Assembly: GCA_019634975.1 (NCBI GenBank)
Contig: JAHCAI010000002.1
Location: 248,001 to 312,000 of the forward strand
Length of the DNA: 64,000 bases
Source of the DNA: Burkholderiales bacterium
GTDB lineage: Bacteria > Pseudomonadota > Gammaproteobacteria > Burkholderiales > SG8-41
Direction of reading: 5' to 3'
Position numbers and translations under genes: made by a program
The notes under the pieces: model-generated
What the model was told of the DNA's origin: nothing
Seen by the model: only the letters and a program-made list of their open reading frames with translations
Databases searched by the model: none
Part shown: in pieces, positions 2,756-4,798 of the stretch
Layout of the letters: every line of letters starts with the position of its first letter
Position numbering within the stretch: the stretch's first letter is position 1

Positions 2756-3655
<900 letters not shown>

Positions 3656-3662
3656 GGAGCGA

Positions 3663-4034
3663 GATGTGAGGGGTTGGGAGTTAAGAGCGCCTAACAGAAT
3701 GAAACACGTGTGCGTTACAGCCAGAATCGGTTCTGACGCGAAGCGCGGCGCAGTTCATATCGCGAATATGAGCAAGCCGCGCGACAAAGTCAGGGCCGAT
3801 TCTGGCTGTAACCCGATGATATTGTTGAATATTTCAAGTGCCTGCCGGGCTGGCGCGATTTTGGCCGGAGGCGGCGTCCCAGTCCTTGCGAATATTCCCG
3901 ATATTCGCTGCGGACTGCTCCTTGCCTCCAGCCAAAATCGTGACAGCGCATCACGCGTTTCATTCTGTTAGGCGCTCTAAGTGTGGGGGATGGTTTGGAT
4001 CCCGCTCCTCACGCCTGACCCCTTACTCCTGACT
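3663..4034. repeat. Degenerate inverted repeat flanking the multi-hairpin element
   Basis: The outer flanks of the intergenic region are themselves complementary: GTGAGGGGTTGGGAGTTAAG on the left, and a right-hand CTCACGCCTGACCCCTTACTCC read in reverse. Similar purine-rich wording appears in the tatA-tatB gap (14816-14884). The 295-bp element appears to have landed inside an older short inverted repeat of this type. Apart from these two layers, the 387-bp gap between the ATPase and permease genes holds no credible gene. Confidence 0.5.
3684..3978. repeat. 295-bp multi-hairpin inverted-repeat element (MITE/cruciform-like)
   Basis: A perfect 22-bp outer inverted repeat (core GCGCCTAACAGAATGAAAC) at 3684-3705 and 3957-3978 encloses two long hairpin arms. 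Arm 1 has a perfect 17-bp stem, GTTACAGCCAGAATCGG at 3714-3730 with its complement at 3796-3812, and nested stems GCGCGGC/GCCGCGC and TCATAT/ATATGA. Arm 2 has CGATTTTGGC-type stems at 3856-3872 and 3924-3940, nested CAGTCC/GGACTG and a GCGAATAT/ATATTCGC tip with a 5-nt loop. TAAG lies at both outer edges and could be a 4-bp target duplication. No transposase is present, and no second copy was found in the window. Confidence 0.85.
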
Positions 4035-4042
4035 GCTGAAAA

Positions 4043-4798
4043 ATGACCGGTTTCCACACCCTGTTCTACAAGGAATGGCTGCGCTTCTGGAAGGTCAGCG
4101 TGCAGACCGTGCTCGCGCCGGTGCTGACCGCGCTGCTCTACCTGCTGGTGTTCGGCCACGCGCTGCGCGACCGGGTCGAGGTTTTCCCGGGGGTGGATTA
4201 CATCGCCTTCCTGGTGCCGGGGCTGGCGATGATGTCGGTGCTGCAGAATGCCTTCGCCAATGCCTCCTCCAGCCTGATGCAGTCCAAGATGACCGGCAAC
4301 ATCGTGTTTGTGCTGCTGCCGCCGCTGTCGCACCGGGAGTTTTTCCTCGCCTACCTGCTGGCGGCGATGGCCCGCGGCCTGGTGGTGGGCGCCGGAGTGC
4401 TGCTGGCAACGCTGTGGTTCACCGACCTGGGCATCGCCCACCCCTGGTGGGTGCTGCTGTTCGGCGTCTTCGGCAGCGCGGTGATGGGCGCGCTGGGGAT
4501 CGTCGCCGGCATGCACTCCGACAAGATCGACCAGCTCGCGGCCTTTACCAACTTCATCATCCTGCCGCTGACCTTCCTGTCCGGGGTGTTCTATTCGATC
4601 CAGTCGCTGCCCGCGTTCTGGCAGGCCGCCTCGCACCTGAACCCGGTTTTTTACATGATCGACGGCTTCCGCTACGGTTTCTTCGGCGCTTCGGATACCT
4701 CGCCGTGGCTGAGCCTGGCGATTGTCGGCGGCAGTTTTGCCGCCTTATCATGGCTGACGCTCTCGCTGCTGAAATCGGGATACAAGCTGCGGCACTGA
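4043..4798 (+). CDS. ABC-2 type exporter permease (YadH-like)
   Basis: Integral membrane partner of the upstream ATPase, 251 aa with about six hydrophobic segments typical of ABC-2 permeases. It begins MTGFHTLFYKEWLRFWKV, the usual amphipathic start before the first membrane segment. The late motif ILPLTFLSGVFYSIQSLP followed by LNPVFYMIDGFRYGFFG is characteristic of the YadH/NodJ family. The cargo cannot be read from sequence. Distance from the ATPase gene is 387 bp because of the inserted element, so co-transcription may be attenuated. Confidence 0.88.
   Translation: MTGFHTLFYKEWLRFWKVSVQTVLAPVLTALLYLLVFGHALRDRVEVFPGVDYIAFLVPGLAMMSVLQNAFANASSSLMQSKMTGNIVFVLLPPLSHREFFLAYLLAAMARGLVVGAGVLLATLWFTDLGIAHPWWVLLFGVFGSAVMGALGIVAGMHSDKIDQLAAFTNFIILPLTFLSGVFYSIQSLPAFWQAASHLNPVFYMIDGFRYGFFGASDTSPWLSLAIVGGSFAALSWLTLSLLKSGYKLRH

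Follow-up and report, generated by a model that had tools for sequence, protein, structure and literature searches.

A probable MITE with a conserved cloverleaf core in a Burkholderiales exporter operon, and the IS5-type ends of its relatives

Known palindromic repeats and the exporter-locus element

MITEs are usually viewed as decayed copies of one IS. The closest described systems are IS5-family ISs (IS5_3 NF033580; ISPa67-like) and the MITEs derived from them, which have the same terminal inverted repeat (TIR) sequence as the element analyzed here and a TWA, TA, or CTAG target; the interior of our element, however, is unlike that of the ISs, and its conserved cloverleaf is found under many TIRs. 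Neisserial Correia/NEMIS repeats and ERIC are likewise palindromic and MITE-like, lie between genes, and become part of mRNAs, but they differ in sequence and size, whereas the core described here is conserved across the phylum and across TIR types. REPINs/BIMEs, mobilized by RAYTs (PMC3116915, PMC2817692), are dispersed repeats with two inverted hairpins. The likeness is in architecture only, because our element is about 270–300 bp long, bears DDE-type TIRs and target duplications, and has much larger arms. The intergenic P. fluorescens repeats R200 (320 bp) and R26 (352 bp) are of similar size and may include members of the family, but the passages retrieved from that source (PMC2718517) describe neither a core nor an exchange of jackets (the TIRs around a core). 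A literature search returned no clear earlier description of the cloverleaf core family, and a text search for TIR and core strings matched only a PCR primer; because ISfinder, subscription papers, and supplements lay outside the search and R200-like families could overlap with this one, we file the element family as a form of MITE and not as a separate new category.

The window, i.e., the whole 64,000-nucleotide stretch analyzed from a Burkholderiales bacterium, contains the element between the ATPase and permease genes of an ABC exporter (Table 1). When the window copy is aligned with other copies, its ends read GAGCGCC...GGCGCTC, giving an element of 293 bp with a 21-bp perfect TIR; the longest overlapping ORF encodes only 101 aa. 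The initial annotation had described a perfect 22-bp outer repeat, with TAAG at both edges suggesting a 4-bp duplication. This repeat is present (3684–3705 / 3957–3978), but its outermost A/T pair is fortuitous, since the element starts at 3685, and TAAG is replaced by a 3-bp TAA duplication (compare copy C1, which reads TTA/GAGCGCC...GGCGCTC/TTA/T). The two nested hairpin arms were found as claimed, and the suggested folding check returned a strong fold: the 303-nt stretch reached −184 kcal/mol as RNA compared to −100.5 ± 5.3 kcal/mol for dinucleotide shuffles (z = −15.7), with 0 of 100 shuffles folding as well, and DNA parameters gave z = −15.5.

Table 1 Coordinates of the window element, its surroundings, and related features in other sequences (window positions unless a locus or accession is given)
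Feature	Position	Strand	Remarks
Whole element, 293-bp MITE	3685..3977	+	Borders from copy and flank comparison
Target duplication TAA, left copy, 3 bp	3682..3684	.	Flank comparison
Target duplication TAA, right copy, 3 bp	3978..3980	.	Flank comparison
Left terminal inverted repeat GAGCGCCTAACAGAATGAAAC	3685..3705	+	First 18 bp equal the TIR of the L186 IS5-family IS bar one base
Right terminal inverted repeat	3957..3977	-	Inverted-repeat and copy comparison
Conserved cloverleaf core	3711..3955	+	245 nt in the window, about 217 nt in most relatives; covariance model R1, alignments A1, A3
Hairpin arm A	3714..3812	+	Two conserved internal loops
Mini-hairpin CCC/GGG	3813..3848	+	3-nt loop in most relatives; about 30 nt longer in the window subfamily
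Hairpin arm B	3849..3948	+	Diverged inverted copy of the arm A motif
Upstream ABC exporter ATPase gene	2756..3655	+	Start inferred
Downstream ABC exporter permease gene	4043..4798	+	
Older short-unit hairpin of the intergenic gap, site of MITE insertion	3651..4013, arms 3651-3665/3999-4013	+	
Complete 902-bp IS5_3 ISs	L186:673-1574, L191:1501-2402		Genomes G030 and G079
Integron integrase of the source genome, full length	G000:C18:120756-121697 (L362/L364)		TIGR02249, 473 bits
Carrier Azotobacter chroococcum pAcX50f	NZ_CP010421.1:19134-19401		Unannotated gap
Carrier Pseudomonas aeruginosa plasmid	NZ_CP017294.1:8550-8817		Unannotated gap

Copies, empty sites, and an IS5-family partner

The window element is very probably a MITE whose interior belongs to a conserved-core family, because it occurs in multiple copies, is flanked by a TAA duplication, is absent from orthologous loci, and has ends matching those of an autonomous IS5-family IS of ~902 bp. 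The MITE reading of the initial annotation was thereby borne out, together with the further copies and empty orthologous sites that it had suggested looking for. The source genome contains about six copies, four of which (on contigs C12, C1, C2, and C15) are 92–100% identical, whereas one is degenerate (C5) and one is split over the ends of contigs C16 and C2. Because the flanks of the two halves correspond to those of one intact insertion in the congener G004, they are probably one copy that was inserted before the species split, and this common insertion appears to show stable inheritance of another copy. A search across genomes found matches in 20 of 61, and identical 3-bp flanks were present in 29 of 64 distinct pairs with the window TIR (chance expectation about 1), all of them TTA or TAA. 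Versions of only 48–50 bp, barely longer than two TIRs, were also observed (L105:4649-4698, L117:5892-5939, L145:5963-6012, L151:6306-6355), with 3-bp target duplications TAA, TTA, and TGA.

Congeners encode the same ATPase-permease pair, and none of the 18 with a readable gap holds the element. In the closest one (G015), the permease is 92% identical and the 80-bp gap has flanks homologous to those of the window. These comparisons show insertion, at a TAA target between the two genes, into a pre-existing gap, and the element is not a conserved regulatory element of the exporter operon. As the gene pair is present in congeners that lack the element, one part of an earlier proposal, that of a structured regulatory RNA, finds no support, namely a cis-regulatory role at the exporter locus; its other part stands, because the fold is conserved and covaries phylum-wide. 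The mobile-element and structured-nucleic-acid readings are compatible. The congener gaps themselves (L198, L201-L203, L205, L210, L213) are either short (4–46 bp) or filled by a hairpin built of short repeats, the units of which vary by species (GGATTGAGG, GTGAACGGGTGAACGGG, GAGTGAGG, and their complements), i.e., a fast-changing hairpin at one site, of which window positions 3651–3665 / 3999–4013 are the counterpart.

The route to the partner IS began at contig ends in the G005 genome, where the terminal sequences of multi-copy elements led to complete ISs in two other genomes. These ISs have the TIR GAGCGCCTAACAAAATGA and TTA/TAA duplications, i.e., the same TIR type and TWA duplication as the MITE, and their transposase belongs to the IS5 family (DDE_Tnp_1 PF01609, 3e-23; IS5_3 NF033580, 1e-38). 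Identity between MITE and IS ends after about 18–21 bp of TIR, which excludes an origin of the MITE by internal deletion from the 902-bp IS. An origin as an internal-deletion derivative of an IS5-family IS was likewise rejected, since the MITE interior shares nothing beyond the TIR. We infer that an IS5-family transposase would move the MITE in trans. The initial annotation had proposed looking in the source genome for a transposase with matching ends, and a search of that assembly found no IS5_3 transposase. The mobilizer may be absent or lost there, although this absence is weak evidence because in G005 the transposase falls in assembly gaps. Because GAGCGCCTAACAAAATGA-type ends also flank unrelated interiors (CCCTCACCCTCGGTCCCTCTCCC, GTAGCCCGGATGGAGCGCAGCG) in repeats at six other loci (L174, L175, L176, L181, L178, L107), one TIR of the IS5 type apparently serves several unrelated cargoes.

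The cloverleaf core and its jackets

The core is composed of stem P1 (which continues the TIR), arm A, an invariant CCC/GGG mini-hairpin, and arm B. The interior is not IS debris but a structured core of two inverted hairpins around the mini-hairpin, closed by the TIR stem. The arm A profile matched the reverse complement of arm B with a score of 48.6 (shuffled maximum 28.9), compared to 16.1 for arm B on the same strand, so the element is an inverted dimer in which two copies of one hairpin motif have diverged. All 41 of 41 cores have the unpaired A3784, and conservation is at least 93% at A3774, A3775, G3750, and T3877. A subfamily with an additional hairpin-rich insert between the arms (L229, L230) is multi-copy in the G026 genome.

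Searches with the window copy also matched elements that have only the interior in common with it and end in AGGGCCTGTTAAC... and AGAACCTATCTCAATAAT.... When 23 cores were aligned, they showed a common cloverleaf (mean pairwise identity among representatives 0.64) with double compensatory changes in 41 of 58 predicted pairs. A covariance model (R1) matched, mostly over its full length, in 137 of 399 genomes from the order, representing 68 of 158 genera, and in 70 of 398 from the phylum. Raw match counts exceed true copies, because the quasi-palindromic element is also reported on the opposite strand; per-genome copy numbers rest on a rescan of ten genomes, which in closed genomes located up to about 25 places each (G247, G251, G116). 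A sequence-only HMM from the element's own bacterial family, run to exclude the matching of hairpins in general, recovered 17 of 17 phylum-level loci (E 1e-6 to 1e-42 at Z = 5 Mb). Occurring in roughly one third of the genomes sampled from one order, the core is a new structured family to annotate that has no Rfam entry, and it accounts for unannotated hairpins inside many operons. With lenient thresholds, Rfam yielded no meaningful match for the window element or 35 related loci, and membership of a known RNA family was rejected on this ground.

Covariation was evaluated in 41 diverged cores aligned with MAFFT without structure (80 pairs). Paired cells amounted to 85.7%, compared to 64.5% in shuffled controls and 34–41% with slid partners, so the stem pairing that the initial annotation had wanted checked in relatives is kept. 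Double changes occurred in 71 of 80 pairs, with 640 double-changed cells versus 200 (shuffled) and 134–233 (slid). The structure was derived from the same alignment, which biases the slid control in its favor; the size of the pairing gap goes well beyond this bias. Mean information was 0.69 bits in unpaired and 0.89 bits in paired columns, so that, on average, the unpaired columns showed no greater conservation.

TIRs vary widely across the family while the core persists with the same architecture under all jackets, and the interior has a wider distribution than any single set of ends. Cores that are 75–85% identical bear TIRs at background identity (core/TIR identity: L330/L338, 85%/47%; L293/L297, 81%/55%; L326/L329, 79%/50%), and near-identical TIRs are found on cores with <50% identity. 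The two identities still correlate overall (r = 0.57), so part of the TIR change is ordinary divergence that accompanies that of the core. Matching IS5-family ISs were identified for four jackets, the first being that of the window. The closed genome G247 contains ~25 elements with AGAACCCATTTCATAAATAGG and 12 near-identical ~857-bp IS5_3 ISs with AGAACCCATTTCATAAATAGC, and AGAACCCATTTCATAAATAG is common to both. Annotated IS5-family ISs in Polaromonas JS666 and Variovorax SRS16 end in AGGGCGTGTTAACACTAAT, close variants of which occur in Cupriavidus and Enterobacter, and ISPa67 of Raoultella ends in a near match to AGGGTCTGTTGACGTTT; for these jacket matches from Polaromonas to Raoultella, the E-values of individual 30-base BLAST searches are mostly weak, but a second, inverted end was confirmed in five of six cases, all except that in Paracoccus. 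On these comparisons, jackets appear to have been exchanged instead of drifting base by base, and a Pseudomonadota-wide core lineage may repeatedly have taken the ends of different IS5-type elements. Our best reading, at about even odds, is that the family is a phylum-wide satellite lineage in which a heritable folded core persists by swapping in the ends of resident IS5-type transposons. If true, this would be a bacterial parasite that exploits many transposons and whose defining part is a structured, possibly functional non-coding core. It offers a testable case of a non-coding element changing its transposase partner and a natural experiment on which part of a MITE is under selection.

Alternative explanations, role, and spread of the core

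An integron origin was considered because the ends GCCTAAC/GTTAGGC had been noted to fit attC core sites, and the source genome encodes an integron integrase (473 bits). These ends are part of the TIR common with the IS5-family IS, and the copies lie scattered, with TWA duplications on either side. Within the 20 kb around the integrase, no attC-like pair whose core sites are perfectly complementary was found, and its contig has no MITE copy. G247, rich in copies, lacks any match over the integron-integrase cut-off. That the element is an attC-like site or integron-associated mobile unit is thus highly improbable. Direct attC membership was rejected, as the element was not found in a cassette array next to intI.

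The palindrome might instead be kept by DNA mechanics alone (template switching, quasipalindrome correction) in an ordinary, diversified, and functionless MITE family. Long hairpins can self-correct, and compensatory changes in palindromes also arise by template switching without selection; the partial correlation of TIR and core identities, the average conservation of unpaired columns, and the small number of near-invariant unpaired positions agree with such an origin. We consider it unlikely, given that sequence homology extends across the phylum, that near-invariant unpaired bases lie in the same internal loops, and that the architecture is identical in all jackets. Less easily set aside, if still the weaker prospect, is a structured RNA that is active when transcribed in operons (as an RNase III substrate or an mRNA stabilizer/attenuator), for which the MITE form only spreads the core. 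The very stable fold, phylum-wide covariation, and some invariant unpaired bases would suit this idea, as would the position of the window copy within a co-directional exporter gene pair; MITE transcripts are described as forming stable stem-loops that could act on the mRNAs containing them (review PMC10969869). Against an RNA, the arms are inverted copies, placing one motif on both strands, the exporter locus of congeners lacks the element, Rfam gives no match, and orientation relative to genes shows no significant bias (41 vs. 27, p = 0.11, from crude ORF calls). Without such a bias, host regulation has no positive support.

Our reading remains that of a MITE with a conserved core, for which the least secure step is that the core may have a strand-symmetric role as folded DNA or RNA. 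Because the arms are symmetric on both strands and orientation is not significantly biased, we lean to the DNA level: with slightly less than even confidence, we suggest that the folded arms could act on either strand, as a cruciform or as hairpins of single-stranded DNA to which a protein of the host or of transposition binds, and increase the persistence of the element. A phage search for the element and a plasmid search with the window copy gave no matches, and a plasmid search with a gammaproteobacterial variant matched sequences in Azotobacter, Pseudomonas, and Halomonas (two carriers in Table 1).
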